From assembly GCA_958299035.1 (NCBI GenBank), contig CATQJL010000001.1, positions 31,235,554 to 31,299,553 of the forward strand: a DNA stretch of 64,000 nt, read 5' to 3'. Made by a program: the position numbers and the translations under genes. The notes beneath the pieces were generated by a model. That model saw only the letters and a list, made by a program, of their open reading frames with translations, made no database searches and was not told the DNA's origin. This document shows, piece after piece, positions 7,620 through 63,541 of the stretch. The number at the start of each line of letters is the position of its first letter. The stretch's first letter is position 1. The DNA comes from Cylicocyclus nassatus. Lineage: Eukaryota; Nematoda; Chromadorea; Rhabditida; Strongylidae.

Positions 7620-8134
7620 CTAGCTGGCTTACCCGGCTCCGCCCGGCCCTGTCAAAACACTTTGATGAAGTTCCGTTCCCTTCCCTGTACAACCTCTCTC
7701 TCTGTTGCCACTTCTACGTGCAATTCCCTATTGTCCTGTTAGTAATCAGCATGCTCACTTACCCTCCTATGCCAACTCCCATCCCCGTAGCTCAAACTTT
7801 GCAGATAAATCGATAAAATCGATAAAAGTGAGGGTAATCCTAAAAACTGATGGCGCTTTTTGGCTATGCCACAAAATGTTTTTGTGGTGGGTCTTGCTCA
7901 AACTGGATATGTGCTCAGATAATCGCCGGGGGCAGGCGGTCCGCAAACTCGCGCTTTTCTGCAAGCGGTCGGCAAAATTTTGGAGCGCGGCCAAACCTTC
8001 AGCGAGCGGTACTTCCCTATTCTGCCAGCGGGCAGCAATACAGAATTTTCTGCAAGCGCTCGTCAAATAATTTCTTTCAGCGAGCGCTGACTAAACTTTC
8101 AGCAAGCGCTCGGACTCCTTTTATGCACTTTCGT

Positions 8135-8146
8135 GCGTACGCCGAG
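8135..8146 (+). promoter_or_regulatory. Conserved block upstream of SL-like RNA (candidate PSE)
   Basis: GCGTACGCCGAG lies at -49 to -38 from the leader. The identical 12-mer has the same spacing in copy 2 (10632-10643), copy 3 (45466-45477, minus) and copy 4. Nematode SL and snRNA genes are driven by a proximal sequence element in roughly this region. The spacing and identity are seen in the sequence; the promoter role is inferred. Confidence 0.45.
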
Positions 8147-8183
8147 CTAAGGTAAGACTCTACCTGGCAGAGGTGTCGTCGAT

Positions 8184-8309
8184 GGTTTTATCACCCAAGT
8201 TTGGGGTACTTTCTCCAAGCGGAAAGTACCTGAGGGCTGTGCGGTCCTCCACAAGGGACCGCGCGGCCCCCAATAATTTTGCATATTCTCGCGGAAAGTC
8301 CGCGAGAAT
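8184..8309 (+). ncRNA. SL1-like spliced leader RNA gene, copy 1
   Basis: The 22-nt leader (8184-8205) begins GGTTTTATCACCCAAG and ends TTTGGG. It differs from nematode SL1 only at positions 6, 9 and 21, and is followed by GT at 8206-8207. Stem-loop I (8205-8213 with 8222-8230) encloses the splice donor. Stem-loop II pairs 8234-8247 with 8256-8269: 14 bp including two G-U pairs. An Sm-like AATTTTG sits at 8275-8281. Stem-loop III is a perfect 10-bp stem (8285-8294 with 8300-8309). This is the order seen in nematode SL RNAs, with a similar size (~126 nt). Expression is unknown. Confidence 0.8.
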
Positions 8310-10410
8310 GCGGCCAATGCGCCGCAACTAATCCATAAGAAAACCGTGACACTTCTCCGAGCATTTGTCAAAAAATTGAACAATATTCTTCCAAATTTCT
8401 GCAGGCGGAGCGCAAGAAATCAGCGAACTATCTTTCCGGTGCCCGCTTGCCCAAAAATCGCATGGCCGCCTGCCCCCGGCGATTATCTGAGTGGGGGCTA
8501 TTGAACCACTTATGACGAATATGGTAGTCATTGCGCGTGGCAGCGTGTAAAAATCTTGAATCTGCCTGAAACCTTGGCAGGGAGTTACCCAAAGCGCTGT
8601 TTCAGGAATATCGTGCTTAATCCCCACGATAATGGCAATTCGTGTGGTATAAAAGTTTCCCACGACCGTAATGCTTTCCTTATAGGACCACTGCAGCGCG
8701 CGATACACCCTTCGGCGGCTTTTGCCTAAGCAAAAACAGGGAGGGAGATTTGCCGCGTGCGTTACACGTCAGGACAGGCAGGATGGCGCTGGAGACCGAT
8801 ATAAATACAAAGCAACCGTTTCCCCATTTCGTGAGTATCTGGGATCTAAATTGGCCCGAAAGCGAAAAAAAATGTCCATTCAAACACTGCAACTCACCAT
8901 GACTTCACAATAATGCGTTATGATAGCAAGCAAGCATTATATTCATAAGAGTATACTTCTAAACCGTTACAGGTAAGGTTTTGAGCAACTTCGACCCATC
9001 TACTGTACACCCACCGTAACCCAAGAAAATGGCGCTATCGTGCGAAATCAGCATGATAATCATGTTCAGCGCGCCAAATGACCACCTTAGACGAAGTTCA
9101 AAGCAAATCTGTTTCTGCCCCATACCGTATAACCACCATAACTGTATGGAAAGGTCCCAATATGCAGAGAGAGAAACGATATTTATAATTAGCATGTCGA
9201 ATAAACCATATGGACCGAACTCCAGCCGAATTCATATTTTTACTTCCTACTAAACCTATCGTAACCACATGGGAAGACGTTCTGCGGAGAAATCTGATGT
9301 CCGCTTCACGCGATTTCAGTCGCGACGCGATTTGGCAATTCGCCAGAAGTCTGCGGATCCAACATTAGCAAACTGCACATACATAGTGTGTATAACTTAC
9401 GTAGACTGATGAAATGCCCTATCTTCTGTACATTTATAATGTGCTTACAATAAGTTATGGGCACCTGGAATATTGCCAAATCGCGTCGCGATCTGGCATC
9501 GCTTGAAGTATGCCCGGCCCTTAAGATAACCCTTATACACGAAGTCTGAGCAAGCTCTACCGCAAAAAAATTTTGGAGCCCGGATAGCTGAATAGCGCCA
9601 AACGATATCGAACTCGTAATCAGCATGCTTGATTACCCCCCTGTGCCAAATCCCAGCCCCGTACCTCAATCTTTACAAAAAATCGATAAAATTAATAATA
9701 GTAATCGATAATTCTGAAAACTAATATTGTATTCTGAATCCCCATGCTCGAATACCCCCTGTGCAAACTCCCAGCCCCATAGGTGAACTCAGCAAAAAAT
9801 CGTTAAAAATCGGTAAAATCGATATCGATAGATGACGAAAAGTAGCCTATGACGCCCGACGGGGCCCCGAAGTGTATGTGTGCCAAGTTTGGTCCGGATC
9901 GGTTCAGAAATGGAATTTTCTATTCGGAACATACGTACAGGCAGACATACAGACAGATCAGCTTTATATACTACTAGCTGGCTTACCCGGCTCCGCCGTA
10001 TCCGGACCAAGCTTGGCACACATACACTTCGGGCCCCGGCGGGTGTCACAGTCCACTTTTCGTTATCGATCGATGTCGATTTTACCGATTTTTATCGATT
10101 TTTTTGCAGAGTTCACCTACAGGGCTAGGAGTTGGCACAGGTGGGGAAGTGAGCATGGGGATTCCGAACACAATATTAGTTTTCAGGATCGTCCATTACT
10201 TTTATCGATTTTATCGATTTTTTTTGTAAAGTTTGACCTGCGGGGCTGGGAGTTTGCACAGGGGGGTAATCGAGCATGCAGATTACGAATACAATATTAG
10301 TTTTCAAGATCGTCCATTACTTTTATCGATTTTATCGATTTTTTGAAAATTTGAGCTAGGGGCTGGAATTTGGCACAGGGGTGTAATCGAGCATGCTGAT
10401 CACCCCCCTT

Positions 10411-10988
10411 CTCAGATAATCGCCGGGGGCAGGCGGTCCGCAAACTCACGCTTTTCTGCAGGCGGTCAGCAGGATTTCGGGGCGTGGCCAAATCCTCAGC
10501 GGGCGGTATTTGCGTTTTCTGCAAGCGGGCATCAATACAAAATTTTCTGCAAGCGCTCGTCAAACAATCTCTTTCAGCGAGCGCCGGCCAAACTTTCAGC
10601 AGGCGCTCAGACTCTTTTTACGCAGTTTCGGGCGTACGCCGAGAAAAGATGAGACTCTCTGTGGCAGAGGTGCCATCGATGGTTTTATTACCCAAGTTTG
10701 GGGTACTTTCTTTCAGCGGAAAGTACCTGAGGGCTGTGCGGTCCTTCAAAAAGGACCGTGCGGCTCTCAATAATTTTGCATGTTCTCGCGGAAAATCCGC
10801 GAGAATGCGGCCACTGTGCCGCAACTTATGTATAGAAAAACCGCGATAGATCTTCGAGCGTTCGTCTAAAAATTGGCCAAAATTATTCCAAATTTCTGCA
10901 AGCGGGCCACAAAAAATCAGCGAACTATTTTTCCGGTGCCCGCTTGCTCAAAATTCGCATGGCCGCTTGCCCCCGGCGATTATCTGAG
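10411..10988 (+). mobile_element. SL-carrying TIR element, copy 2
   Basis: 578 bp with the same CTCAGATAATCGCCGGGGGC termini as copy 1, flanked by TT on both sides. It is clearly diverged from copy 1, with many substitutions in the motif region, but keeps the leader, GT donor and all RNA stems. Nested in Helitron H2 among 118-bp satellite units. Confidence 0.88.
10681..10805 (+). ncRNA. SL1-like spliced leader RNA gene, copy 2
   Basis: The leader at 10681-10702 differs from SL1 at only two positions (6 and 21), and GT follows at 10703-10704. Stem-loop I keeps GGTACTTTC/GAAAGTACC. Stem-loop II pairs 10731-10744 with 10753-10766. Its changes relative to copy 1 (C to T on the 3' arm) turn G-C pairs into G-U pairs and leave all 14 positions paired. 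AATTTTG is at 10772-10778. Stem-loop III is 10783-10791 with 10797-10805. Of the four copies this leader is joint closest to SL1. Confidence 0.8.
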
Positions 10989-10998
10989 TTGGGGATGA

Positions 10999-11281
10999 TC
11001 AGCATGCTCGTACCCCCTGTGCCAACTCCCAGCCCCATAGCTCAAACTTTGCAAAAAATCGATAAAATCGATAAAAGTAATCGATAATCCCGAAAACCAA
11101 TATTGTATTCGGAATCCCCATGCTCGATTACCCCCTGTGCGAACTCCCAGCCCCGTAGCTCAAACTTTGCAAAAAAATCGATAAAATCGATAAAAGTAAT
11201 CGATAATCCTGAAAACCATTATTGTATTCGGAATCCCCATGCTCGATTACCCCCCTGTGCCAACTCCCAGCCCCGTAGCAC
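10999..11281. repeat. 118-bp satellite units (ATCGATAAAATCGATAAAAG type)
   Basis: Tandem units of about 118 bp: GCTCGATTACCCCC, TGTGCCAACTCCCAGCCCC, TAGCTCAAACTTTGCA, ATCGATAAAATCGATAAAAG, then AATATTGTATTCGGAATCCC. Related units in either orientation lie at 9620-9790, 10090-10400, 14520-15080, 36645-36720 and 61985-62170, always inside Helitron-like elements. Confidence 0.8.
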
Positions 11282-25281: not shown

Positions 25282-26538
25282 TATAGGGTTAGCACATAAG
25301 TTTTGCAACTTTTTTTTATAACTCGTATGTTTTGCAATGTGGCGCTTCTATTTTCTAATATTATAATTATGGTATTGTTCTGCCACGTGCCAAAAATTTG
25401 ACATGTCATCTACATGTTTAACAGGCTTCACCAAGAGTTCTTGTTACCCTACCTAGCAATGTAAGTTCATTCCGTTTTTTAGTCAATTTTGACCTCATTC
25501 TGATCAATCAGTTTCAAAGTGAACATTGCCATAATAATAATGACATACTGTCATCGATGAACAGATAGACTTGCTCAAGACAGAGAAATGCGCCAGGATT
25601 CCGTCATTTGAAAGGCGAAATAAGAAGCAGCAAGGCACTTCAGCTATCATTTATAGCCTTTTCGGCTAAATTCGCACGGCGACAAGAGTTGAAGAGAAGT
25701 CAATTTGAATCACTGCTGAAAGCAAGCAAGATGTTGAATAAACTCATGATTGTTTTGCACTCATATAAAACAGGTAAATAGCTTTAAAATGATCACAGCT
25801 TTTCTTTTATTTCACCGGAAATAATTTCAAACATGTCTAAATGTACTAAATCCAGCAGGTTTAAGTCTACACATGTACTTGTCAATGGGGATCTTCGGCA
25901 ATTTGCTGAGCACTCCTGGTCTTCTTCTTATTTGTTCAAGGATTGAGCATTCACCAACGTCCACAGCAGAGAGAATCTGTAAGCATTAAAGTAATGTACA
26001 GTCTGTAAGTCTAAGGAGTAAAATGGCAAACTAAGTCCTCTCTTGCTGGTCAACGTACCACTAAGATGGTAAGTGACAAAAAGGTAAGGTTGAAAATTCT
26101 CATTCTTGTCGAACTGACGTAAACTGCCTGGAAAAAATATTTCGAGAAAGTGAGCGGTACATAGAGGGTTTGATAAAACGACGAACAGACGAAACTTCTT
26201 TGGCGTAACTGACAGAGAAACTAATGGAGTATGGGACTATATTTCGCCGGAAATGGGAGGTCCAGTTGGACATCTGCCACAAATACATCTTTTAGTACAT
26301 GCACAGGATGAGTATCTGCTGCATCGTCGAAACCCTCCCACTTTCAGCGACATATAGTCCTCTACTAACAAATGATCTTCTGAGTGCAAGGTAAAACACG
26401 AGTTTACAGATCAAGTCCTACCCAAAAGTTCTCGGTTGCCAATATTTTCTCTTAACTCTGCAAAGCTATAGAATACTGATTGGGTTGTTTTTGAGCCATA
26501 GCAGACCTTAGAAACTTCTTGTCAATTTTTCCTAGACA

Positions 26539-27161
26539 CTCAGACAATCAAATCGGAAAGTTCGCGACCTCAAAGCGCGTTACATGGAGCGCCGCGGCCC
26601 TTGAAATTTCAGCCCCGCATGCCGCGGCCCATGTATATTTTACCGGGAACGCCGCGGCCAACTTGAAATTGGGAAGAATCGAGAGGGTCACGGCCTAGTC
26701 ACCTCACATAGCGGGCCGCGGGCGTTATGAAAAGCTGCAATTCTTACACGCTGTAGAGTAAGGCGCAACCTGCGTGAGGTACGCCGCAGCATTGGGGCTA
26801 CCCTAAGTGTTTAAGAAGCTGGGTATCACCTAAGATTTGGTCCTGTATGACAGAATTGAGTTATCATGATTATGAAATAAACTCCAGCAGTCAGTTGAGG
26901 ACACTCGATGATGTCGACAGATGGGCTAACGAGTTGCTCAGTTTGCACTCAAGTCGTCATTCTGAAAGACAGATTAAATAGTTTTTCACTCTTCCTAGGT
27001 CCTATAAGCATGCTATTCGGGTCAACTATAGGCGCCTAACGGGCACTTACAGGATGTGCCGCGGTCACTCGGTCTAATATATGGGTTTACCGGGCAGCTC
27101 GCGGCGTGGATGATTGGTGGTCGGACAAGCACCCGCGAAATTCCCGATGCATTTGTCTGAG
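26539..27161. mobile_element. CTCAGA-ended element with CGCCGCGGCC motif array
   Basis: 623 bp with ends CTCAGACAATCAAATCGGAA and, on the minus strand, CTCAGACAAATGCATCGGGA. Flanked by CA on both sides. Block B keeps the empty site (CTAGACATACTT at 44851, a single CA), so the insertion and a 2-bp target duplication can be read directly. The interior carries repeated CGCCGCGGCC-type motifs. No coding sequence. The ends place it with the elements at 12009 and the SL elements. Confidence 0.85.
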
Positions 27162-27665
27162 CATGCTCATGCTTAAAAAAAGAAATTTAATGAAATGGAT
27201 AAGAGGATGATTAGATAGTAATTGAAAGTTGGGGAGTTTCTGATATTGTCATAATCTTTTCAATCGAGATGATTCCTCTATCAAAAGAGTTGCTGAAAGC
27301 AGTACACAAAAGTTTTGCCTTGATCCAAACCCACCTTCCTTATCTGCGATGTCGGACTATGGGAAAATTATAAGCGTTCAAAAGACCAAAATTTGCAAAC
27401 ATTTTGTGCTACATCCTCAAGAACTAGTTGTTTAAAAACACCTGCTGTGTCTTCGGTGAATGTGAGCACCCCTTGAAACCTGTACACTAAATATCTTGCA
27501 AGTCATGCACTCCCAAGTTAGATCTTATAGCATATAATGCAGAGCACCAGTGATTTCATAGATTTAAATGATTTTCTATCAATCTCCAGCTAGCTGTTCG
27601 GGACATTTTTAACGATTGCCAGAACAGGAGAGAACGCCAATTTCTTGTCACCAAGCTTCAGAATG

Positions 27666-27777
27666 TCCGATCTAGCAAGTTTGGCCATGTCGAGCAGCAG
27701 AGCCCGGTCTCGACAGGTCGGGCTCCGCTGCCCAGCTGCCCGACATGGCAAAACTTACCAGATCGGACCATATTCGC
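27666..27777. repeat. ~110-bp palindrome with 5S-rRNA-like arms
   Basis: Arm TCCGATCTAGCAAGTTTGGC at 27666 pairs with the complement ending at 27777. Inside, GCAGCAGAGCCCG pairs with CGGGCTCCGCTGC. The arm resembles the conserved GTCCGATCTGGCAAGTT segment of 5S rRNA as I recall it (one mismatch). A second copy lies at 45954-46061 in block B. It is not a 5S gene; it may be a relic or a chance match. Confidence 0.6.
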
Positions 27778-29396
27778 CAATAGAAAAGCCCATCACCAGC
27801 TTGACTTCGTTTATCGCTGAGGTCAGTGCCCGCGTTTGTACTGATGTTACCTGTACAGGAATTCTATTCCTAAATAGGGGACTGATAAACGCGCCTAGTA
27901 TTTGCCTCCCCTTTGCACGTTGGGCTGAGCGATTGCAGACATCCGGAAGTCTTGGTGACTTATCAAAACTAACTGCAAGCCTAGTTCAGTTTTTAGCCTA
28001 GTTCCTAGTTCTTGTACGCCACGTATATATCATACGTTGTCATACGTGGCAGAGGTTGGTTGCGGGAGACTACAAAGAACAACAAACGGATTCTTTGCAA
28101 GTGCTCCGCCCAAATACACCGGGGAGAAGAACGATAGCAAGACTAATTTGAGTTGTGCTGCAAAGATGCGAAAGTGAATAAAAAATTCTTCAACGTTCGA
28201 TATTTATGAGCATTTGACATCTTCTAACTGAATGACTCCCTCTGTATTGCAATAGCCGAAAATTTTCAAGATGCGGACATCTTTAGTAAAATCTATACCA
28301 CTGAATTCGTTTTACACGTATAACACCTACGTCTGTCTTTTCTTCAACTCACGAAAAATACTGTGAGTTGCGCAGACTTGAAGTGAGATGTACCTTCCAA
28401 GCGTAATATGATATCCTAATCACAGTCCGATATTCGTATAAAAACGCTTGCGCGAAAATATTAGTTTAGCCCGAAAACTTGTTAGCACCATCTTGAGAAA
28501 TTTATAGGGTCTTATATTCTGAAGAGTTTCCGAAATTCTTCTTCCTATTCCGAAATTTTGAAATTGTCTGAAAAAGATTTCATGTACTTTACAAAAGCAT
28601 TTGAGATACTTTCTAACCCGCAAACACAGCTGTGATAGATTACGAATAAAATTTGTAGGGTTGCCAGAAATGTGAACCAGGGCCGGGGCGAAGGTAGCAA
28701 ATAGTCCTTTGTGAAGTGATTAAGCCTTTGCCGCTTTGATTTCACGATTTTCCCCTAATCGCACCAACTGCGCAGGCTATTTGATTGAAGCGCGTTTTTC
28801 TCAAAAGCCGAGACCCATTTTTTTTCGAACTCCAGCAAAGAGGAGAGGAGATGTTGAAGAGGAAGTCGCTCCAATGATTACCCAAACGTCAGTATTCTTG
28901 CATTACATACAAGAACTTATATACTCTGCAAACTTTCAAAGTATTGACCTCTACTCTGCATGAAGGGTCGCTAGGGGATCGTAAAGTCCACACATGAGTG
29001 CCTCGGTGCTGACCAAGAAGCAAAGCGCAAGGTTGTGAAAAGAAGAAATTTTATTGTTGACTCTGGAATTTATGGTATAAATGCACCTCTTCAAATAAAG
29101 GCTGGGCTAGGATACCAGAAAAGAAAAGATCAACATTTCCGTTTTATCTATCACATAGTACTTTTGTCGGCATTGTAAGCGGTTGCAAAATAGGGTAATA
29201 TTATGTTGACTGTAATGGACTCCGCTGAAGAGTTGCACTCGATAGGAAGGCTCGATAGGAATATTTGTGGAAGGCAAGCCCTACAACATGTGAAGTGAGA
29301 AATCAAGAGCGTATGACCGACACGGGCACAAGTTCCTTTCTTACACTTATATAGCCCTGTATCAGTCACATGCGAATACTTCTTTTAATCGCTTGT

Positions 29397-30838
29397 ACGT
29401 AATCAGCTTTGAAGATTAAGATAATTAAAATCTCTTGATAAACTGTAACAAAAAATTTTGTTAGTCCTTGAACCAACCCGCAACTCGTTGCTAAGTGTGT
29501 CTGTTGCTTGTGAGCAAGTGCGTCGAATGACAATCTAACGATGCTTTCGGAGCTTCCAGATGATTCTGTCAATCGATCTAAGGGAGTTCTTTGTTTAATC
29601 ACACGACAACCATTTAATTACCCCAGTCGCATTGCCATTGATTAAATTTTGCAATGCTCAAAATCAAATGATTCTTTTATGAATATGGTGCTCAAGATTA
29701 TTTTTTACCGAAACGTTAGATGTCAAAAATCGTCAATGTCAAAATTGTCAAAAAAAAATTTTTTTAAATAAAGTGTCGCGCAAATACTCACTTCGCTAAA
29801 GGCTTGATGAATGAGCGCCCAAAATTCTCCTCTCCACAATTGGCTTTTTGATAACATGCTGTGAATTTATGTCTGAACATGTAAATGCAAGCCTATAATC
29901 ATAATGCCAGCGCTATAATCACCAGTGTGATACGTGTTTTGAACTCACATCAAAGACGGTGAAAAATTTGGCTTTTTGCCCTACAAAAGCAAATATTAAC
30001 TTTCTTTTGTACTCTTAGTTTTCATTTCTTTACGGCCATTAGATCACATGCGTTTCTGTATGCTCCATGATTCGGAACTCCATTCTGCTCATCTTCACCT
30101 GGATATAGTATTCGGATATGGCAAACGTTTCTTCTTTCTTCAGCCAGATTTTTAGCCGATTATATTTTATCAAGTAAATCGTGGATTTGATGACAATACT
30201 TTTATCCAAAAGAGCCAAGTGATGTTTTTTAGTGATGCAAAGATCAATTATCAGATCATCTGTTTAGTGTCATTGAGAATCATTTACAGCAAGCTCCTTA
30301 GCGATTGCTGATAGATTGCATTGAGAATTTGCTTCGTCGTCTTAGTCATTTTTGCTTCTCTACAATACAGGACAAAGTATTGGGTGCTTGAATACATTGA
30401 TTGCTTGTACTGCAATAGTCACCTCCGTGCCTCAAATTGCATATGATGGAATAAGTGCTTTACTGCAAACTCACTCAAATGCATAGATGCAAGTTTCTAA
30501 AAACTGTAGATAGCCGATGTGCATGTGCATTCTTTGCGGAAACTCGACGATATATAATAAATGCAGTACTTTGCCTAAAATAAAAAAATATCAAAAAATT
30601 TTTTTTGATTTTCTAAAGGACGAAAAAGCCTCTTCAGTGCTCGTCGTTCCTATTCATAATACTTGCAAATTATAAAAACCGTGTATTCCGAATGACAAAT
30701 TTTTGATGTTTTTGGTGTACTTAAGTAGTCGTCACATTTCGCCGAAAATGCTAATGTAATCGTACAGTACCTTGACAGCTCACCGCAGTGCGATATGATA
30801 CGTTAGAATGCGTCAAAATTTTGCTTTTCAGTTTAGGA
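29397..30838 (+). repeat. Left arm of long inverted repeat, block A
   Basis: About 1.44 kb, repeated in inverse orientation at 34720-36118. Landmarks include AATCAGCTTTGAAGAT at the outer end and GCATAGATGCAAGTT inside. CAGTGCGATATGATAC lies at the inner end. The arms look about 80-85% alike by eye, less than A against B, so the inverted structure is older than the duplication. No gene in the arm is recognised. Confidence 0.8.
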
Positions 30839-30840
30839 TT

Positions 30841-31083
30841 TGTTAATTGTTGTGGTCTTCTTCTTTCTGTGGATCCAGGACACGAATAGCACCAGTGCTT
30901 TATTGGCATTTGGTACATATGACAGAAGCGAGGAATGGAGGAATGGAAGAATGAATAATGAAGACTACGGCAAAAGAAAGCTCTTATATAGCCCTATAAG
31001 GATGGTTGTAAACAAAACAAGAGATATATATAATAGAGACTCATTTACTACATTTACATGCAGCCTAATGCCACTCTACAACA
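30841..31083 (-). repeat. 3' LTR of a Ty3/gypsy-type element (A)
   Basis: On the minus strand the 243-bp LTR starts TGTTGTAGAG at 31083 and ends ACAATTAACA at 30841. Directly upstream is a polypurine tract, AAGGAGGGAAA (31084-31094). Inside are a TATA-like GGGCTATATAAGAG (30980-30994) and an AATAAA (30899-30904). Position after the integrase end and TG..CA ends fit a 3' LTR. There is no 5' partner LTR. Confidence 0.75.
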
Positions 31084-31097
31084 TTTCCCTCCTTAAG

Positions 31098-31875
31098 TTA
31101 GTCACTGTATCGTTTCTTCGATGGTCGATCTTGAGACGACGTGATGACGAGTCCTTTGCGAGCGGCGACGGACAGGACGCAAGACGTTCGTCTGACGGAT
31201 TCATCAGCGTCACTTGGTACGGCATTGGTTGCAGCAATACCAGGATTTGGCACAACATCAATGTAATTGGCGTCGGCGGCAGGTACATCAGCGAACACGG
31301 CGAGAGTCGACTGTCTGGGGAACCTAAAATCAATAAAATTTAACTCTCCCAATAGCGTGCTGGTAGCATCGGAAACTACTCGAGGGCGTAGCTGATTGGC
31401 ATGGCAATTCCATATAAATCTTTCAACTTCTACGTTGTAGAGCGCGTCCAATCCTTGATTGTAAGATTCCTGGGGTCCAAGTAGGTTTGCTGGATTGCGG
31501 TAGTCGCGAGCGTAGATAGCATCATGGATATAGAAGTGTTTCTTCTTGGCTCCAAGTCTGCGGTTGTATTGAGCTTCCATCCCAAAATTCGTTCCGGAGG
31601 TGGACCTTGGTTTAACAGTCTAGCGTCAGTGACCAAACGTGTAAGCAGTATTAATCGTTCGTCCGAAAAACATCTTGGCCGGAGAACGATTATCTGGCGA
31701 AGATGGGAGGGCGCACACCAAAAGCAAAGTAATAGCTTCGACAAAGCTTCAGAAAGGTTTTCTTCTCCCTTTAGCTTCATAATTCCTCTCTTAAAAGTTT
31801 TAACGAAGAGGTCAGCAAGTCCATTCGATTGTGGGTGGAACGATGGCGGGCTGGATCATACTTCGGCTTTACTGC
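31098..31875 (-). pseudogene. Ty3/gypsy integrase C-terminal relic (A)
   Basis: Minus-strand fragments in different frames form the end of a gypsy-type polyprotein. FHPQSNGLADLFVKTFKRG (near 31850-31795) is the integrase core region, followed by KLKGEE..EALSKLLL. SPAKMFFGRTINT follows in another frame. The C-terminal part has KKKHFYIHDAIYARDYR and LYNVEVERFIW..HANQLRPR, then a tail ending RPSKKRYSD. At least two frameshifts and the loss of everything upstream make it dead. Similarity stops at about 31875, where unrelated DNA begins. Confidence 0.8.
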
Positions 31876-34719
31876 ATGTCAGTCTCAGTTTTGTATGACA
31901 TCTGTTCATCTCGGCATCTGTTGTATCGCATTCATCATAACCTGAAATGATTCACTCAAATGATGATGAGCTTCATAGGAACGACGCTTTCGTGCGGTTG
32001 ACGACATCTCCTTATTCCTTCCCCTCCATCTCCTCACTCCCCTTCTTTCACAATTCAATTGTAACTAGATGGCGCCTCCGGTCCCACAATTTGGGCTACT
32101 TGATCCCAAACGCATTGAAACTCACCGTCTTCTTCACATCTGAGACGAAATGTGATGTCTTCCTTGCTGCCTTGAAACACCTAATCCTTTTCACCAAAAA
32201 TGTAAATGAACTTCACAGCCCAACTTACATGACTATGGGGAAATGATCCAATAATGGTTGGTGAACCCTCGATGTAAGTAAACAAATTAATAAATCAATT
32301 GAAGGGCCTAACAAATCGTCGCAATATGTAGCCTATGTTCTGCGCCGTGCCTTACTTACAGGGGAACGAACTTTATGCCTACTGGTTCACACACAAAAGA
32401 GTCTATAAACCACATACTTACAAGCGAACAAATTTACAGAGATTCGATTTTATCTAGATATAGATTATGATTGATTTTGACACGTAGGTTTCCATTAGAC
32501 CGTTTCGCCAGCGCTTATTGATTTAGCTATTCCGAAACGTGCCGTCTGGATGGGTTTTTTTTATTTACAATGAATGGCGATTTTGGAGTTGCTCTCAGCT
32601 TGTTTCCTTTCCCTTTCTCATGCGGGTTTTTAGTGGCTATGATCAATTTCAAACTTTGACGGGCATTTAGTGGTCGAGGAAAGAGTCAGAGAATTCACCC
32701 AAGTTACAGAAATCAAGAAAGAGATGGAAATTATACTTCATATTGAAACCAATATAATCGTGTTTTTTGAAAGGAGACGGGAGAAGGTTTGCTATTTTTA
32801 CAATTATTTAATTGTATGTAAGTCAGTGATGGCGGATCCACAGAGTTTTTGGCGGGGGAGCGAAACCCAACAGAAGTCACTCCCGCGCATGAAATCTTTT
32901 GTACTTTATAATTTTTCCAAGCTTAAAACATCATTATCACCGTGATAACCATGAGGTTTTCATAATTGTTTGTGGCGAAGGCGCGAAGATATTCTCGAAT
33001 TAATGTTGTGAGCGGCGCGCAGGGCAGTTCTTTTGGGTCTCTGACAGCTCGAAAGGCACTAAATCCTCAATGCTTTGGTCAATTGGCTGTCCTTAGGGCA
33101 GACCCAATCCGCAGTGTGTGGTAAGGCAAATTAGTGACAGTTTCTTCTTGAATTATTTGACTGTTGGGTCGGTCTATGAAAGGCCCAGGTTCGTTTTCAT
33201 AAAAACGGTTTGTATGCTGCTTTTAGAGTCTTTCCTCAAAATATCGGTTTGTAGGGGTTAATAGGAAAGTGCGGCCCAGTGCGGCCCATATAGCAGTACT
33301 CTTTTTTAAATATCGGTCCATGCGCGTAGGACGCTTTTTTTAAATCGGTTTATAGGAGTTCGTAGAGTAGTTACAACTGCAAACTCTATTATGACTCGTA
33401 ATAAAGCGCTAAACGTCTGTCTTTTTGTGCGTGTGTGTTTATCTGTCTGTCACAAAATTCGAAGAGGGAGCTGCGGCCAAGCTATCGAGCTACAATTTTG
33501 CATAACATACCCTACAAGCATGTAGGCCCACCATGCATAAGGACTATCTGGTTCGAAAAGTGAGTCCTTCAAAGTTTGCGCCTCAAACATTTCCACGCAG
33601 CTTTTGGCGCGCAGAAGTAGGTCAGAAATTCAACTTTCTGCAAAGTCTTGATTTGCCTGACAGTAAATCTACGCTCCAAGAACTCTAGCTCGAAAAGTGC
33701 TCAGAAAGTTTGCTTTTCTGCGAAAACAGCGCCAAAAAGTAGTGATCGCGTTAGAAAGTCAATTTGACAAACTTTTACCTAAAATCTGAAAAGGTTTTTG
33801 CACGGAAATGTAGCCTAAAATGACTATCTTGATGACAACTACTAAACCAAAACAAATTCAGTAATCTATTCAAATTCGTAATTGTTCCTTAATAAAAAAG
33901 TTTTCAAATTAGTGATCATACATTGAGATGCTGAGTGAGGAAAGCAGTTTCGCAGAATGAATATCTGTGAGCGGCCCACAGAGTTATCTTTTTTGAACAT
34001 TGATTTGTAGGCGGTTCTTGAGGCAGCATTCTCAAGCGTCCTAAAAACGGCCCATAGGGCAGCTTTTTTATTATATCAAGCTGGCCCATGGGGCACTTTA
34101 TCTCAGGTATGGTTTGTAGGCTACTTGTAGGGCAGTACTTTCTATCTTTGGGTTAGAACTGTATGCTACTTTTATTGGTTATAAGCTCATATAACGAATG
34201 ACTATTCTTTTGCATTCAAATGAATTTGCCTTGACCAGCTGTAAGCAGCTATTAGAATCGCTGGACTTTCTATTATAAGTCTTGTTATGTCCATTGTGCT
34301 ATCCCATCAACATTGCTCTCAAACGTTTACTTCTCATTACCACATTCTTAACAAGTGCAGTAATGCTCCTTCACCGAATCTGGAGCATACAAGGTCTCCA
34401 CACAATTCACACTGTCCGGTTCCACAAATCCGAAAACAGTAGCAGTTGTTATCGCTAAATTGCAACCTTTTATCGTGAGCATAAGCGTACCTGCAATACG
34501 CAAGATGCAATGCATGCTGCCTTACGTTTTTGTAGGATCTTTTATATCAGACGTGACTGCCTTTGCCTGCCACTATACAAAGCAGTAGGTGACAAATTAC
34601 AGATATCTTATTTCCATATGTACGAAATTTAGTTGTCATGTTGTTACAAGTGGTAAGGCGCAATAATGTTCATATGTGCAAAAAACGATTCTCATGTTGC
34701 ACTATTGCAACTTATAATA
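31876..34719. other. Spacer between inverted arms, no recognised gene
   Basis: Frames 31947-32246 (99 codons) and 32670-32945 (91 codons) are preserved almost or completely unchanged at 50183-50482 and 50905-51180, but have no domain I recognise. Low divergence there is general, so it does not prove coding. Around 33170-33370 and 34000-34150, phrases such as CGGTTTGTAG and GGCCCATAGGGCAG recur, a diffuse tandem-like pattern. Confidence 0.45.
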
Positions 34720-36118
34720 GATCTCAAATTGAAAGCAAGATTTTCACACGTTTTAATGTATCATATCGCAGTGCTGTGAGTTGTCAAGGCGCTGTATGAC
34801 TGTAGCGTTTTCGGCTAAATGTGATAACTATTTAAGTACACCATAAGCATCAAAAAATTTCCTATTCGAAATATGGCGGCTTTTATAATTTGCAAGTATT
34901 ATGATAGGAACGACAAGCATTGAAGAAACAAGCTTTTGCGTCCTTTGAAAATTAGAAAAAAGGCATAAACTACTGCCTTTATGTCGCGGAGTTACTGCAA
35001 AGAATGCAAATGCACATCGCCTATCCACAATTTTCAAGAACTTGCATCTATGCATTTGAGTGAGTTTGTAATAATCAGCCCTTACTGTTTCATTTGAAAT
35101 TCGAGGTCATGGAGCTGATTACTAGAGCACAACCAATCAATGTGATCTTCAAAAAGATAGCAAAAGCGAGCACACAATATTTTGTCTTGTACAGTAGAGA
35201 AGCAAAAATGATTAAGACGTCGTCAAAACTTTCCGATGCAATCTCTTAGCAATCGCTAAGGAGCTTGCTGTAAATGATTCTCAATGACACTAAACAGATG
35301 ATCTGATAATTATTTATTGCATCACTAAAACACATCACTCAGCTCCTCCTAATAAAAGTATTGTCATCAAATCACCGACTAACTTCAGAAATCATAATCG
35401 GCTGAAAATCTGGCTAAAAGACGTCTTCGAAACGTTTGCCATAACCAAATATTATACTTAGATAAAGATGAGCAGAATGGAGTTTTGAATCACAAAGCAT
35501 ATAGAAACGCACGTTGTGATCTAGTGGCCCTAAAAAAATGAAAACTATGAGTACAAAAGCAAGTAGTAACTTGCTTTTGTAGAGCAAAAAGCCAAAATTT
35601 TCACCGTCTTTGATGTGAGTTCAAAACAAGCATCATACACGATGATTATGGCGTAGTTTTGTATTCAACGTTTAGACATAAATTCACAGCACGTTGTCAA
35701 AAAAGCCGCAAATTCTGGAGAGGAATGAATTTTGAGCGTTCATTCATCAAGCTTTGAGCGAAGAAAGTATACATCCGCGATACTTCATTTGGAACATACA
35801 TTTTTTGACTCCAACTTTTGGGTGAAGAAATAATCTTGAGCACCATTTGTAAAAATACCATTCGATCTTGAGCATTGCAAAATTCAATCAATGGCAATGC
35901 GACAAGGGTAATTATATGGTTGTTGTGTGATTAAACAAAAAACTCCCTTACGTCGATTGACAGGATCATCTGAAGGCTCCGAAAGCATCGTAAGATTGTC
36001 ATTCGACACATTTGCTCACAAGCAACGGACACATTTAGTCATGAGTTGCGGGCTGGTTCGAGGACTAACAAAATTTGTTACAATCTATCAAGAGATTTTG
36101 TTTATCTAAATCTTCAAA
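34720..36118 (-). repeat. Right arm of long inverted repeat, block A
   Basis: Inverse partner of 29397-30838. The outer end reads ATCTTCAAAGCTGAT at about 36105-36119. The frame 34828-35055 (minus) is the mirror of a frame fragment in the left arm and is not taken as a gene. Confidence 0.8.
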
Positions 36119-36126
36119 GCTGATCA

Positions 36127-36859
36127 TCTTATATATAAAGCTGAATATCTGTTTGTATGTCTGTATGTATGTCTGTATGTCAGTGGCGGTCCCAGGATTT
36201 CGGACCGGGGAGGGGGGGGGGGGGAGCGCGGCAAAAACTTTTTTCTAATGAAGGTGCGTGGCGTTAGCCACGCACTCCGAAAAAAATTTAGGGGTGCTTC
36301 TCAAAATTTTTGCGGGTCCCCAACCCCTAAAATCTGGAAAAAGGGGGCGTGGCGTCAGCCACGCCCCCGAAAAAATTTTTTTATAGGGCTAGTTTGAATT
36401 TTTAAAAATTTTTAAAAATTGTTTTAATTGTTTACAAAAATAAACAAGTCATTTGCACATTTTTATAGCCCACGTAAGTAAATTTCAAAAATTTCGCGAC
36501 CCATTCTCGGGAGGGGGGGGGGCGCGCCCCCCCCCCCCCCCCGCCCCCCCCCCTCGGTCCGCCACTGCTGTATGTCTGTCTGTCTGTCTGTACGTATGTT
36601 CCGAATAGAAAATTCGATTTCTGAACCGATCCGGACCAAACTTGGCACGCAGCATGCTCGATTACACCCCTCTGCCAAATTCCAGCCCCCTAGCTCAAAT
36701 TTTGCAAAAAATCGATAAAACCGACATCGATCGATAACGAAAAGTGGACTGTGACACCCGCCGGGGCCCCAAGTGTATGTGTGCCAAGTTTGGTCCGGAT
36801 CGGTTAAGAAATGGAATTTTCTATTCGGAACATACGGCGGAGCTGGGTAAGCCAGCTAG
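36127..36859 (+). mobile_element. Helitron-like element H5 with visible empty site
   Basis: Starts TCTTATATATAAAGCTGAAT after A (36126) and ends GGGTAAGCCAGCTAG before T (36860). Block B has the intact target GATCATTACTTATAATAAC at 56867-56885. The element therefore sits exactly between A and T with no target duplication, as Helitrons do. The 3' end can fold AGCTGG-GTAAG-CCAGCT. The interior includes poly-G/poly-C runs, GTGGCG(t)(t/c)AGCCACGC hairpins and one satellite unit. No Rep/helicase, so non-autonomous. Confidence 0.85.
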
Positions 36860-36966: not shown

Positions 36967-37560
36967 ATCTTGTCCTACAGGAGCGTGCGGGCCATTTTGA
37001 CCGAGTGGGCGGGTTTCTAACGGAATGGGCGGGTCGGCCAAAAGGGATGGTCGTCCGCCAGCGAACCTCGATGCACTTTGACCGAACTCAATCGAGCTAT
37101 TGTGCACGGCAATACACTATATAGAAGGTGCTGGGTTCGGGTTGTAGATGCTCCCCTTGTAGACGACCCTGGCGGCAGGGACCATGTCAGAGTGCAAAAA
37201 TGGGGTCTTCCCGGCTCGGCGGCCGGTTTGATTACCCAACTTTGAAAAAAAAATTGGGCATAGTTTGTTTTTGTATGGGTATGTATCTTGTCCTACAGGA
37301 GCGTGCGGGCCATTTTGGCCGAGTGGGCGGGTCGGCCAAAAAAGATGGTCGGCCGCCAACGAACCTCGATGCACTTTGACCGAACTCAATCGAGCTATTG
37401 TGCACGGCAATACATTATATAGAAGGTGCTAGGTTCGGATTGTAGATGCTCTCCTTGTAGACGACCCTTGCGGCAGGGACCATGTCAGAGTGCAAAAATG
37501 GGGTCTTCCCGGCTCGGCGGCCGGTTTAATTACCCAACTTTTTAAGAAAAAAATTTGGGC
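36966..37560 (+). repeat. Two tandem ~298-bp units containing SL1-like starts
   Basis: Two direct units share TATCTTGTCCTACAGGAGCG at the left. Next come CGAACTCAATCGAGCTATTG and a TATATAGAAGGTGCT box. Then TGTAGACGACCCT, and CGGCTCGGCGGCC immediately before GGTTT(g/a)ATTACCCAAC. The first unit has an additional 20-bp insertion near 37015. Frames here follow the repeat and are not taken as genes. Confidence 0.85.
37225..37256 (+). other. SL1-like 5' sequence in tandem unit 1
   Basis: GGTTTGATTACCCAACTTTG (37225-37244) matches SL1 positions 1-20 except at 6 and 16. CCCAA can pair with TTGGG at 37252-37256 across an A-rich loop. There is no GT donor at the expected place, no clear Sm site and no stem-loop III, so it is at best a degenerate SL RNA relative. 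Confidence 0.4.
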
Positions 37561-41891: not shown

Positions 41892-42045
41892 TAGGCCGTC
41901 CGCGCAGGGCGCGGAGAGTGCGCAAGGTGTGTGTTGCGCGTCACTCCTCTTTCCCCGTGCACTCTCGCCGCCTGTTTTTCTCTGCGCTCAACTATCTTCA
42001 CTGGACGCAACAGCGTTGCTCTCCGCGCGCAGCGCGGACAACCTA
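41892..42045. mobile_element. Small GC-rich MITE inside the PLE
   Basis: TAGGCCGTCCGCGCAGGGCG at the left is mirrored at the right (minus strand TAGGTTGTCCGCGCTGCGCG), with TA on both sides. At ~154 bp it interrupts the region just upstream of the RT fingers motif. The start of the 308-codon RT frame therefore lies in this insert, not in the element's true protein. Confidence 0.65.
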
Positions 42046-42047
42046 TA

Positions 42048-42842
42048 CCCATTTGTCCGGTACTGTACACTTTAATAAAAACACATAAGTTATCTCCCAG
42101 CGGTCTTCATTTAAGCAACCCCCAGGACTTCAAAGTTAGACCTATTATTAGCAATATCGGGGGCCCAACTGATAAGATCGCTTGGTATCTTTTGATATTG
42201 TCTCAGCTACTCAAGTATGTCCCTTCGCACCTCCCTAATACTGCTGCGTTTCTGGATCGCCTACGCAGTACGCGCATAGATCAAGAGAGCGTTGTAAAAT
42301 CTTTCGACGTAAATGCGCTCTACACTAATGTTTCAAACCGCGATGCTATGGAAGCTATTTTTGAGCTGTTGCAAGAACACCAATCCTCGCTTGATTTACA
42401 AGGCATTTCTATCAGAGGTATAATGACCCTACTGCATGAGTGCCTTCAATACTCAATATTGCGGTGGTCCGGACACTATTATGAGCAAATTAGAGGCCTT
42501 GCCATGGGACAACGTTTAGCCCCGACGCTAGCTATTGTGTTTAGGTCGAAAGTAGAGGCGCCTGTTCTCGAAAGAAAACCTTTGCTGTATTGTCGTTACG
42601 TGGACGACTGTTTTATCGTATGTCCCACGCAGGCCGAACTTGACCTTTGTTACGAAATACTGAATCAGCAATTTCTGCATATAAAATTGACTCGAGACAG
42701 GCCCACGAATGACTGGCTAGCGTTTCTAAATGTTGAAATTCGATTAATGGACGGTGAATTCAAGACGAGGTGGTATCGCAAGTTAAGTAGTAAAAATAAA
42801 TTAGTGCACCACGTTTCAGCTCATCCCGTTCACAAAAAAAAA
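42048..42842 (+). pseudogene. Penelope-type reverse transcriptase (N-truncated)
   Basis: RT motifs in order: LYTLIKTHKL (cf. the PLE 'YGLPKIHK' box), VRPIISNIGGPT, motif A KSFDVNALYTNV with the catalytic Asp, motif B IRGLAMGQRLAPTLA, motif C RYVDDCFIV with the catalytic Asp pair, and WLAFLNVEIR downstream. The order and the YVDD box are those of Penelope-like RTs. The N-terminal part before LYTL is missing or cut by the MITE. The frame ends at a run of A (42833-42842) where a slip moves the thumb region (SVIGDMYRTA) into another frame. Confidence 0.9.
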
Positions 42843-43568
42843 GTCTGTAATAGGTGATATGTACAGGACAGCTGCAAACGTCTCGTCCGGAAGCAAAGAA
42901 AAAATCTATTCATTAGCACTGGCTGATACGGTAGCAAAATCAAACGGGTTCCCTATCAAAAAGCGCATACATAAAAAGCGCCGACAAAATAGTACCAAAA
43001 AAGCAGAAGCTGAAACTAAGATTCCATTTTGTTTGCCATTTGTGTCAGAAGAATTGAGTATGATAGTCAGAAAGTTATTACAGCAAGCGGAGCTAGAAGA
43101 TTGGGTAAGAGTCGTCGACATACCGCCTGCTAATCTCAAGCATCAGCTTGTTCGCAATCGCGCGTATGACAGACTATGTACGCTCCCAGCTGTAGGATCT
43201 GCCCGTTTGGCAAACAAGCTGATTGTATGGTTTCTGGTGTAGTGTACCGTATTACATGCCAATCATGCAAAGAATCGTATATAGGTGAAACCGGACGCCC
43301 ATTGTGCACACGCATAAAAGAACACTTAAATGGGCTTAGAAGATCAAATCCCACCACGCCGTGGGCATGCACCGCAGACAGCGCCATGAGGACGCAAGTT
43401 TAAGCGTGGAGGTCACAATCTTAGCGTATGAGCCCGAAATCCTAACGCGCAAAGCTTTGGAAGCATTTTGGATCGCGACGGAAAGTCCGAAGATGAATAG
43501 AAAAGATGAGTGCCTGTCCATTACACAAGAGGGCTCCTTACCAGAGTCTCTGTGGCTTCTCCGCTAAC
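42843..43568 (+). pseudogene. PLE connector and GIY-YIG endonuclease (frameshifted)
   Basis: The first part (frame 42859-43242) is a basic linker with KKRIHKKRRQNSTKK. Around 43180-43340 another frame gives the CRICPFGKQADC cysteine pair, then GVVYRITCQSC and YIGETGRPLCTRIKEHL. These are the GIY-YIG core: the VY and YIG tyrosines, Arg in CTRIKEH, and the Cys knuckles usual in PLEs. The C-terminal part (43361-43567) has ALEAFWIATESP and a late Asn. Three frames are needed, so it is inactive. Confidence 0.88.
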
Positions 43569-45120
43569 AGTAGACCGAGACCAAATTACTAGATCTAGAA
43601 GAATGGTGGTCAGTCTTTGGGATAATGTATCCATTGAATTGTTGACAGAGCAATGACCCGATCTTGTCATTTGTACTCTTTTGATTCGCTAACAGGTTGG
43701 ACAATTTGTTTGATCGTGGCGAAGTTGCTGACTGGACAGTTTACATGGTCACGACTTTTTCAGACCCCGAAGAAGGTGATATTGCCGAAACGTCGGTCAA
43801 ATAAAGAAATATACCAATCTTATGCAAGCTGAACAAATCAGTGAAAAATAATGACATACTTTCATCGATGAACAGATAGACTTGTTCAAGACAGAGAAGT
43901 GCGCCAGGATTCCCTTATTTGAAAGCGAAATAAGCAGGAGCAAGGTACTTCAAGCTATCATTTATAGCCTTTTCGGCTAGATACGCACGGCAACAAGAGT
44001 TGAAGAGAATTACATTTTTGAATCATTGCTGAAAGCAAGCTAGAATAAACTCATGATTGTTTTGCACTCATGTAAAACAGGTAAGTAGCTTCAAAATGAC
44101 CACAACTTTTCTTTTATTTCACCGAAAATAGTTTCGAAAAAATATGTGAAAATGGACCAATACGGGTCACTTTTTTTAAGTTATTTTTTTAATCAACATA
44201 CGAACTCGGTACTGATCACTGGTACTGGTTTTATCTTCTTTAGTCTTCTTATAAATTCAAGGAAGAGCATTCACCAACGTCCACAGCAGAGAGAATCTGT
44301 AAGCATTGAAGTAATGTACAGTCTGTAAGTCTAAGGAGTAAAATGGCAAACTAAGTCCTCTCTTGCTGGTCAACGTACCACTAAGATGGTAAGTGACAAA
44401 AAGGTAAGGTTGAAAATTCTCATTCTTGTCGAACTGACGTAAACTGCCTAGAAAAATATTTCGAGAAAGTGAGCGGTATGTAGAGGGTTTGATAAAACGA
44501 CGAACAGACGCAACTTCTTTGGCGTAACTGACAGAGAAACTAATGGAGTATGGGACTATATGTCGCCGGAAATGGGAGGTCCAGTTGGACATCTGCCACA
44601 AATACATCTTTTAGTACATGCACAGGATGAGTATCTGCTGCATCGTCGAAACCCTCCCACTTTCAGCGACACATAGTCCTCTACCAACAAATGATCTTCT
44701 GAGTGCAAGGGAAATTACGAGACTACAAATCAAGTCCTACCCAGAAGTTCTCGGTTGCTAATATTTCCCCTTAACTCTGCAAAGCTATAGAATATTAATT
44801 GGGTTGTTTTTGAGCCACAGCAGACCTTAGCAACTTCTGGTCAATTTTTCCTAGACATACTTATGCTTATAAGAAGAAATTTAACGAAATGGAAAAGAAG
44901 ATGATCAGATAGTAATTGAAAGTTGGGGAGTTTCTCATATTGTCATAATCTTTTCAATCGAGATGATTCCTCTATCAAAAGAGTTTCTGAAAGCAGTACA
45001 CAAAAGTTGTGCCTTGATCCAAACCCTCCTTCCTTACCTGCGATGTCGGACTATGGAAAAATTATAAGCGTTCAAAAGTCCAAATTTTGCAAACATTTTG
45101 CGCCACATACTCAAGAACTA

Positions 45121-45709
45121 CTCAGATAATCGCTGGGGGCAGGCGGTCACGCGATATACGGGCGGGCGGGCACCGGAAAAATAGTTCGCTGATTTCTTGC
45201 GTTCCGCTTGCAGATATTCGGAAGAATTTTAGCGATATTTTAGATGAATGCTTGGAGAACAATTGCGGTTTCCTTATGGATTAGCTGCGGCACAGTGGCC
45301 GCATTCTCGCGGACTTTCCGCGAGAACAAGCAAAATTTTCGGGGGCCGCACGGTTCTTTGTGGAGGACCGCGCAGCCCCCAGGTACTTTCCGCTGAGAGA
45401 AAATACCTCATACTTGAGTAATTAAACCATCGATGACACCTCTGCCATGTAGAGTCTCACGTTTGCTCGGCGTACGCCTGAAACTGCTTAAAAACCGTCC
45501 GAGCGCCAGCTGAAAATTTGACCAGCGCTCGCTGAAAGAGATTATTTGACGAGCGCATGCAGAAAATTCTGTGTTGCTGCCCACTGGCAGAATATGCGAC
45601 AGTAAAGGAGGTACCGCTCGCTGAAGGTTGGGCCGCGCCACAAAATTCTGCTGACCGCTTGCACAAAAGCGCGAGTTTCCGGACCGCCTGCCCCCGGCGG
45701 TTATCTGAG
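45121..45709 (-). mobile_element. SL-carrying TIR element, copy 3 (empty site known)
   Basis: 589 bp, ends CTCAGATAATCGC and complement. Block A has the uninterrupted target CAAGAACTAGTTG (27419-27431) with one TA. Block B has TA on both sides of the insert, so insertion duplicated 2 bp. The copy diverges from copies 1, 2 and 4 but keeps the GCRAGCGS motifs and the RNA gene, on the minus strand. Confidence 0.92.
45304..45428 (-). ncRNA. SL1-like spliced leader RNA gene, copy 3
   Basis: The minus-strand leader (45428-45407) starts GGTTTAATTACTCAAG and ends TATGAG. It matches SL1 at 20 of 22 positions, differing at 12 and 18, and retains SL1's 3' GAG, then GT. Stem-loop I is GGTATTTTC/GAAAGTACC with one U-G pair. 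Stem-loop II is 16 bp with one mismatch. The Sm-like AATTTTG is at 45337-45331, and stem-loop III at 45326-45304 has a 9-bp perfect stem. Its two differences from SL1 are not those of the other copies, so the copies hold separate leader variants. Confidence 0.8.
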
Positions 45710-45953
45710 TAGTTGTTTGAAAACACCTATGTGTCTTCAGTGAATGTGAGCACCCCTTGAAACCTGTACACTAAATATCTTGCTAGTCATGCACACCCAA
45801 GTTAGATCTTATAACATATCATGCATTGATACACCAGTGATTTCATAGATCTAAATGATTTATCTATCAATCTCCAGCTAGCTGTTCGGGCCATTTTTAA
45901 CGATTGCCAGAGCAGGAGAGAACGCCAATTTCGTGTCACCAAACTTCAGAATG

Positions 45954-46061
45954 TCCGATCCGGCAAGTTTGGCCATGTCGAGCAGCAGAGCCCGATCTCG
46001 ACAGGTCGGGCTCCGCTGCCCAGCTGCTGTGCCCGACATGGCAAAACTTGCCAGATCCGAC
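45954..46061. repeat. ~108-bp palindrome, block B copy
   Basis: Counterpart of 27666-27777, with arm TCCGATCCGGCAAGTTTGGC. Differences from the A copy fall in both arms. See that entry for the 5S-like resemblance. Confidence 0.6.
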
Positions 46062-49067: not shown

Positions 49068-49069
49068 TT

Positions 49070-49312
49070 TGCTGATTGTTGTGGTCTTCTTCTTTCTGTG
49101 GATCCAGGACACGAATAGCACCAGTGCTTTATTGGCATTTGGTACATATGACAGAAGCGAGGAATGGAGGAATGGAAGAATGAATAATGAAGACTACGGC
49201 AAAAGAAAGCTCTTATATAGCCCTATAAGGATGGTTGTAAACAAAACAAGAGATATATACAATAGAGACTCATTTACTACATTTACATGCAGCCTAATGC
49301 CACTCTACAACA
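49070..49312 (-). repeat. 3' LTR of the gypsy relic (B)
   Basis: 243 bp, equivalent to 30841-31083, with the polypurine tract next to it at 49313-49323 (here GAGGGGAAT type). Only a few bases differ from A, and both have the same single LTR. The element was therefore already truncated before the duplication. Confidence 0.75.
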
Positions 49313-49326
49313 TTCCCCTCCTTAAG

Positions 49327-52580: not shown

Positions 52581-52584
52581 TTAA

Positions 52585-53150: not shown

Positions 53151-53352
53151 TTAACAAGTGCAGTAATGCTCCTTCACCGAATCTGGAGCATACGCGGTCT
53201 CCACGCAATTCACAATGTCCGGTTCCACAATTCCGAAAACAGTAGCATTTGTTATCGCTAGATTGCAACCTTTTATCGTGAACATAAGCGTACCTGCAAT
53301 ACGCAAGATGCAATGCATGCAGCCTTACGTTTTTGTAGGATCTTTTATATCA

Positions 53353-55296: not shown

Positions 55297-55479
55297 CAGA
55301 CGTGACTGCCTATGCCTGCCACTATACAAAGCAGTAAGTGACAAATTACAGATATCTTATTTCCATATGTACGAAATTTAGTTGTCATGTTGTTACAAGT
55401 GGTAAGGCGCAATAATGTACATATGTGCAAAAAACGATTCTCATCTTGCACTACTGCAACCTATAATAGATCTCAAATT

Positions 55480-62963: not shown

Positions 62964-63541
62964 CTCAGATAATCGCCGGGGGCAGGCGGCCATGCGATTT
63001 TTGGGCAAGCGGGCACCGGAAAGATAGTTCGCTGATTTCTTGCGCTCCGCCTGCAGAAATTTGGAAGAATATTGTTCAATTTTTTGACAAATGCTCGGAG
63101 AAGTGTCACGGTTTTCTTATGGATTAGTTGCGGCGCATTGGCCGCATTCTCGCGGACTTTCCGCGAGAATATGCAAAATTATTGGGGGCCGCGCGGTCCC
63201 TTGTGGAGGACCGCACAGCCCTCAGGTACTTTCCGCTTGGAGAAAGTACCCCAAACTTGGGTGATAAAACCATCGACGACACCTCTGCCAGGTAGAGTCT
63301 TACCTTAGCTCGGCGTACGCACGAAAGTGCATAAAAGGAGTCCGAGCGCTTGCTGAAAGTTTAGTCAGCGCTCGCTGAAAGAAATTATTTGACGAGCGCT
63401 TGCAGAAAATTCTGTATTGCTGCCCGCTGGCAGAATAGGGAAGTACCGCTCGCTGAAGGTTTGGCCGCGCTCCAAAATTTTGCCGACCGCTTGCAGAAAA
63501 GCGCGAGTTTGCGGACCGCCTGCCCCCGGCGATTATCTGAG
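62964..63541 (-). mobile_element. SL-carrying TIR element, copy 4
   Basis: 578 bp flanked by TA on both sides. Reverse-complement comparison with copy 1 (7914-8491) showed no difference that I could find, so this is a very recent duplicate at a different kind of target. Confidence 0.9.
63146..63271 (-). ncRNA. SL1-like spliced leader RNA gene, copy 4
   Basis: The minus-strand leader (63271-63250) has the same bases as copy 1, followed by GT, stem-loops I and II, AATTTTG and stem-loop III (63170-63146). The upstream block GCGTACGCCGAG is kept. Confidence 0.8.

Follow-up and report, generated by a model that had tools for sequence, protein, structure and literature searches.

The window analysed here, a stretch of 64 kb of the Cylicocyclus nassatus genome (contig C1, positions 31235554-31299553), carries four copies of a short element with terminal inverted repeats, each of which holds a unit laid out like a nematode spliced-leader (SL) RNA; all four lie where a preliminary description of this DNA had placed them, with the 2-bp flanking repeats it had reported (Table 1). 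The termini, which had been called identical, are indeed inverted repeats, of 26-28 bp across the four elements, but the word is slightly too strong: 26 bp are perfect in e1 and e4, while e2 has 1 mismatch and e3 has 2 mismatches in the first 28 bp. In fact e1 and e4 share 100% identity across 578 bp, in opposite orientation, 54 kb apart and between different duplications (TG and TA), and e1 is 86.5% identical to e2 and 84.2% to e3. Repeats of the kind CTGCAAGCG are also present inside the element. As for its surroundings, e2 is enclosed by a ~120-bp satellite repeat in two inverted arms (10330-11070), and an open frame over it (10400-10846, 149 aa) has as its only protein match another copy of the element, P0120. 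This match is encoded on a public 871-bp contig (source ENA), where the frame runs over a copy of the e2 type that has different flanks, and 144 of 146 residues are identical to the e2 frame. No relative of P0120 was found among viral contigs, and the terminal-repeat pattern gave 0 stretches in each of the viral and prokaryote contig collections.

Table 1. Features of the four elements and of the empty site (positions in the window; e1 to e4 are the four elements)
Feature	Position	Strand	Details
Element e1	7914..8491	+	578 bp; terminal repeats 7914-7939 and 8466-8491; TG duplications 7912-7913 and 8492-8493
SL RNA-like unit of e1	8184..8310	+	leader 8184-8205; GT 8206-8207; ATTTTG 8276-8281
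Stem I of e1	about 8205-8214/8221-8230	+	predicted fold
Stem II of e1	8232-8249/8254-8271	+	closing pair and one inner pair unformed in e1
Stem III of e1	8285-8295/8299-8309	+	predicted fold
Element e2	10411..10988	+	578 bp; TT duplications
SL RNA-like unit of e2	10681-10807	+	leader 10681-10702
Element e3	45121..45709	-	589 bp; TA duplications
SL RNA-like unit of e3	45302-45428	-	leader 45407-45428
Empty site of e3	27162..27574	+	paralogous arm of segmental duplication; single TA at 27425-27426
Element e4	62964..63541	-	578 bp; TA duplications; sequence identical to e1
SL RNA-like unit of e4	63145-63271	-	leader 63250-63271

Copy number and transposition

The window's own assembly (514,686,895 bases in 369 contigs) was searched with the 26-bp terminal repeat, a count that had been suggested as a check, and 6930 occurrences were obtained with at most 2 mismatches, against 0 for the reversed-pattern control. 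The pattern of the element-type leader with its donor gave 2062 sites, again with at most 2 mismatches and with 0 in the control; these are pattern matches, not individually placed between terminal repeats. The 114 host-array SL1 genes are inside this number, as their GTCGAC differs from the ATCGAT of the pattern by two bases; accordingly the element-type sites are at most 1948, and a few further SL1 repeats, for example those of locus L060, also fit the pattern. For comparison among copies, 49 full-length copies were taken from the best-scoring places together with the window, and 31 more came from 40 loci on C1 anchored by exact terminal repeats, five of which were picked for odd spacing and the others taken in the order of C1, skipping places already used.

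Exact 2-bp duplications flank 67 of these 80 copies and comprise 13 kinds of dinucleotide, while longer flank matches are rare (3 bp in 2 copies, 4 bp in none). Moreover, e3 provides a filled and an empty site: the element is bordered by TA on both sides, and the uninterrupted sequence, with a single TA, survives in the paralogous arm of a segmental duplication whose arms share about 92% identity there, so e3 is younger than the duplication. The duplication itself extends over 26000-36290 and 44300-56290, with a spacing of 18.2-20.8 kb and about 92-100% identity in the listed parts. The empty site, the duplications and the genome-wide number of terminal repeats bear out the earlier proposal that an SL RNA-like unit has spread with a mobile element. 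Tc1/mariner transposons require a TA target; the target here is not fixed, so this group was rejected. Since no coding capacity is recognised in the element, a transposase encoded elsewhere is likely to move it. The search for an autonomous partner, which had also been suggested, came back empty at the loci examined: two loci have the terminal repeat alone, with no second repeat within 8 kb, and another (L086) looks like an internally deleted copy. Elements nested within other copies are seen at four loci (L012, L028, L030 and L032), where the insertion at L012 lies in the leader of another copy and three nested elements entered at one and the same internal position (239-241 of the element); a single event may account for L028 and L030, whose identity is 99.8%.

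The SL RNA-like unit and the host SL1 genes

The preliminary description had given each element a 22-nt leader two or three bases away from SL1 and followed by a GT donor, and this holds for all four: the leader differs from SL1 at 3 positions in e1 (and in e4, which equals e1) and at 2 positions in each of e2 and e3, so that 19-20 of the 22 positions agree, always with the GT. Chance likeness was rejected, as 200 sequences generated from the window by a first-order Markov model reached at most 16 matching positions with GT and 18 without it. Wherever one window copy departs from SL1, the SL1 base is retained in another. Most full-length copies have one of two leaders, type A (GGTTTTATTACCCAAGTTTGGG), two bases from SL1, or type B (GGTTTAATTACTCAAGTTTGAG), one base from it; the A type is one base off the SL1b of Aphelenchus avenae as given in the accessible part of a previous report (PMC2825203). 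Elsewhere in the window, two further SL1-like leaders (37225-37246 and 37523-37544, 19 and 18 of 22) lie in a ~300-bp tandem pair and have no GT.

Folding of the four RNAs, proposed earlier as a check, predicts three stem-loops in the 127-nt unit: stem I of 11 bp, stem II of 15-18 pairs (with one mismatch in e3) and stem III of 10-12 bp. Stem-loops II and III are thus present as had been described and are longer than the 14-16 bp and 9-10 bp then assigned to them. The fold of the e1 unit has a z-score of -8.07 and a predicted energy of -66.4 kcal/mol, compared with about -26 for the host SL1 RNA. As to the stem-loop that had been put over the donor, the donor GU is indeed predicted to be buried in a hairpin, of 9-11 bp, but its partner there is downstream sequence and not the leader; a leader-donor pairing as in stem-loop I of SL1 would still be possible for 5 (A type) and 6 (B type) of 7 pairs. 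The Sm core ATTTTG, which the preliminary description had listed as AATTTTG, is present in each window copy and is flanked by stem-loops. It begins 68 nt past the GT in the three window types, against 43 in the host SL1 (the latter counted by eye). According to the accessible text on SLIDR, its settings for the Sm core are 20-60 nt past the donor, with 40-55 in C. elegans (PMC7986045), and the element falls outside both ranges. The donor hairpin and this distance together raise doubt about leader donation.

A scan with the Rfam SL1 model (RF00198), the covariance test that had been called for, went against the unit: e1 scores 16.3 bits and e3 15.2 bits, with no match listed for e2, far below the cut-off of 75, and the e1 match is out of register, beginning 19 nt inside the unit. 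Considering that the SL1 of the host's own arrays also misses the gathering score, this test is not diagnostic here.

The host retains its own SL1 genes in tandem, in agreement with the earlier remark that SL genes are normally so arranged. Exact SL1 followed by GT occurs at 470 genome sites, of which the host-array type (GTCGAC, leader and GTATTTTC) makes up 114, and the 100 of these 114 that were listed are all arranged in tandem, in runs on the contigs C1 and C37. Two such arrays (L059 and L061) have 680-bp units; the L059 array has no 5S match at the Rfam gathering score, which sets it apart from Nippostrongylus, where the SL1 genes are described as tandem with 5S in the part of the report available (PMC5765664). 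Nucleotides 1-31 of the host array RNA agree with those of the element RNA at 29 of 31 positions in most B-type copies and at 28 of 31 in most A-type copies, and the ATTTTG Sm core is common to both. Between this shared 5' end and the Sm core the element is longer, with the donor hairpin and the 15-18 pairs of stem II.

Upstream of the leader, the element resembles the host SL1 gene in just two places, a 17-column stretch, which lies farther upstream in the host gene, and the bases immediately preceding the leader, both unscored by shuffles. The last 60 bp before the leader resemble a block found upstream of some of the host's U2 genes (8 loci compared of 12 fetched). For example, type B against the U2 locus L117 gives a score of 15 that is reached by 0 of 500 shuffles, and for type A with L111, 12 of 500 shuffles reach the real score; over L111, L112 and L117 the range is 0-46 of 500, L113 follows with 50 and 140, and the remaining four loci (64-462 of 500) have no clear excess. 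In the element the block is ~15 nt nearer the start. The U2-like character of this block is suggestive only.

Variation among the copies

Of the 80 copies, 78 retain the donor GT and 74 an Sm core of the form AT(4-6)G. A leader at most 3 bases from SL1, GT, Sm core and at least 90% of pairs intact occur together in 63 of them; for the 31 TIR-anchored copies alone the number is 19. The copies are young: in clusters of 30, 13 and 20 copies, the three large ones, the median divergence from the consensus is 1.2, 1.4 and 3.1%. Leader positions 12 and 21 vary together, being C/G in type A and T/A in type B, where the host SL1 has C/A: all of the first 49 copies, 76 of all 80 (the others being 2 C/A, 1 T/G and 1 A/A) and 98 of the first 100 listed of the 2062 genome sites, as read from the list, are C/G or T/A. 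This linkage may reflect two linked types or selection for a leader hairpin. Mosaic copies also exist, in which the leader is of one type (A or B) and the body of the other; both combinations occur.

The evidence for constraint on the element RNA is divided. Between subfamily consensuses, 6-7 pair changes keep pairing and 0 break it, whereas among private changes 18-37 keep pairing and 23-33 break it (one-sided P 0.012-0.025 over three cluster thresholds, clusters of fewer than 3 members, that is 26, 17 or 12 of the 80 copies by threshold, being omitted). The same comparison on the first copies only, with the degenerate copy L013_101 omitted from the private changes, gives a two-sided P of 0.028; stem pairs 66-71 and 21-48 were omitted from both tests, and a double change from AU to GC enters the test on the first copies and one of the three thresholds on the 80. 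In a simulation on three copies, neutral change is expected to break 6.1-7.7 stem pairs, and the observed number is 2 (P 0.0008-0.013, varying with the transition share); this result is biased towards pairing because the consensus was used as the ancestor. The donor GTA has the lowest variability among nine regions compared. On the other side, site diversity in the stems (0.088) is not clearly below that in the 5' body (0.102) and 3' body (0.147; Mann-Whitney P 0.57), and shuffling of pairs in the three window types reveals no excess covariation, as 334 of 500 shuffles reach the observed value. Taken together, these results are suggestive of constraint.

Origin and possible roles of the mobile unit

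With good confidence we regard the element as a MITE-like DNA transposon carrying an SL unit that was likely captured from the host SL1, which has a predicted SL fold and would give variant leaders if transcribed. Its structure, its transposition, its copy number, and the first 31 nt and Sm core in common with the host SL1 are directly observed. As to its history, a short non-autonomous DNA transposon would have captured one ancestral SL1-type gene; after the capture stem II would have lengthened, a new hairpin would have formed in which the donor pairs with an inserted inverted copy of the donor-site sequence, and the leaders would have split into the A and B types. Source copies would have retained the SL RNA layout while dividing into subfamilies, and transcribed copies would supply variant leaders to trans-splicing. 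That young copies are transcribed, assemble an Sm particle and donate their leaders is a tentative proposal, to which we would give a little less than an even chance. Against the explanation as a whole are counted the variability of the stems, the lack of covariation in the shuffles, the donor hairpin, the Sm distance, the weak upstream likeness, the low Rfam scores and the missing partner. The stronger version, in which up to ~1950 mobile units, ~17 per host-array SL1 gene, are expressed from young copies and put A and B leaders on mRNAs, seems unlikely.

The most serious alternative is that the SL unit was captured once and now rides along untranscribed, its intact stems reflecting recent copying and not use; we consider this quite possible, somewhat short of even. 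It would account for stems no less diverse than the body, for the low divergence within the three large clusters, for a donor within a hairpin and for the lack of a clear host SL1 promoter upstream, but it does not anticipate that pairing survives every pair change between subfamilies and is often lost in private ones, nor that the donor GTA is the least variable region, nor that the upstream block is like some host U2 promoters. Rather improbable is a decoy or parasite, whose RNA would bind Sm or SL1-particle proteins and compete with the host SL1 while the hairpin disables its own donor: the additional donor hairpin and a fold far more stable than that of the host SL1 RNA are consistent with it, yet a pure decoy need not keep its donor, and nearly all copies keep the GT. 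Less probable still is a role of the hairpins at the DNA level, as cruciforms or transposase sites in transposition, with the SL1 likeness a relic; the strong hairpins and the internal CTGCAAGCG-kind repeats could be read in this way, but not the leader, GT and Sm core standing in SL RNA order in 63 of the 80 copies. Finally, a SINE-like origin as RNA-mediated SL pseudogenes, which might draw on the proposal, in the available part of its source, that SL RNAs may retain an ability for transposition (PMC4233971), is ruled out for practical purposes by the terminal inverted repeats, the exact 2-bp duplications and the empty site.

The usual description of SL genes is that of host loci, with SL1 in tandem arrays. 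For scattered, variant SL families such as SL2, a DNA transposon with the whole SL RNA layout would be a direct route of dispersal and diversification; in C. elegans the SL2 genes are scattered, according to the accessible part of one report (PMC11822377). Compared with nematode SL1 genes (C. elegans sls-1 and the host arrays), the unit has the 22-nt leader, GT, stem-loops, ATTTTG and, for the host, nucleotides 1-31 in common, and differs in lying within a transposon, in its longer stem II, in the donor hairpin paired downstream and in the 68 nt to the Sm core. It is similar to MITEs in its 578-589 bp, terminal inverted repeats, target duplications, many copies and lack of recognised coding capacity, whereas a near-complete SL RNA unit and 2-bp duplications without fixed target distinguish it. 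Flatworm LTR and LINE elements with SL leader remnants likewise place spliced-leader sequence in mobile elements; as far as the accessible text goes, those are partial leaders only, from trans-spliced retrotransposon RNA, unlike the full layout in a DNA transposon found here (PMC12582326). That survey, in the same portion, discards SL loci near mobile elements, and existing surveys may thus filter out such transposon-borne units. The Tm1 family of root-knot nematodes also has terminal inverted repeats, and its members include MITE-like ones and some that contain a histone-hairpin motif, but its duplications are of 9 bp, it is of Mutator/Foldback type, and the term SL RNA is absent from its text (PMC3169594). 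The hypothesis of mobile SL RNAs, as set out in the available part of its source, is the same idea framed as retrotransposition, while the evidence here is directly for DNA transposition (PMC4233971). In the open-licence literature, a scope outside which most subscription papers lie, we recognised no report of a DNA transposon that carries an SL RNA gene. The A- and B-type leaders are distinguishable from SL1 in any 5'-end data of C. nassatus; should the stronger version above hold, the leader repertoire of trans-splicing would evolve through transposition, and a transposon would have taken over much of this nematode's supply of spliced-leader genes.

Besides the element and the host arrays, other repeats bear SL1. 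The dispersed repeats of loci L047-L058 also carry the exact SL1 leader with GT, and two same-strand pairs among them (L050/L051 and L054/L055), 7.8-7.9 kb apart and sharing 339 and 657 bp at 98.8-99.7% identity, resemble LTRs of retrotransposons. Just 5' of the leader in the 12 dispersed loci, AATAAA or AATAAAG is found in 6 and GATAAA(A) in 3 more. The leader in these repeats may be an R region, rewritten in each cycle from the host SL1 RNA via trans-splicing. A third kind of SL1-bearing repeat (L060, C1:31164500-31167200), about 70 kb from the window, is palindromic and holds 8 exact SL1 sites with GT in runs at 65-82-bp spacing. Within the window, a reverse transcriptase fragment (41895-42854), presumably Penelope-like, has its nearest relatives in strongylid nematodes; of its 119 protein matches the best are at ~46-69% identity, and those with names come almost all from Ancylostoma, Necator, Haemonchus, Angiostrongylus and their relatives.
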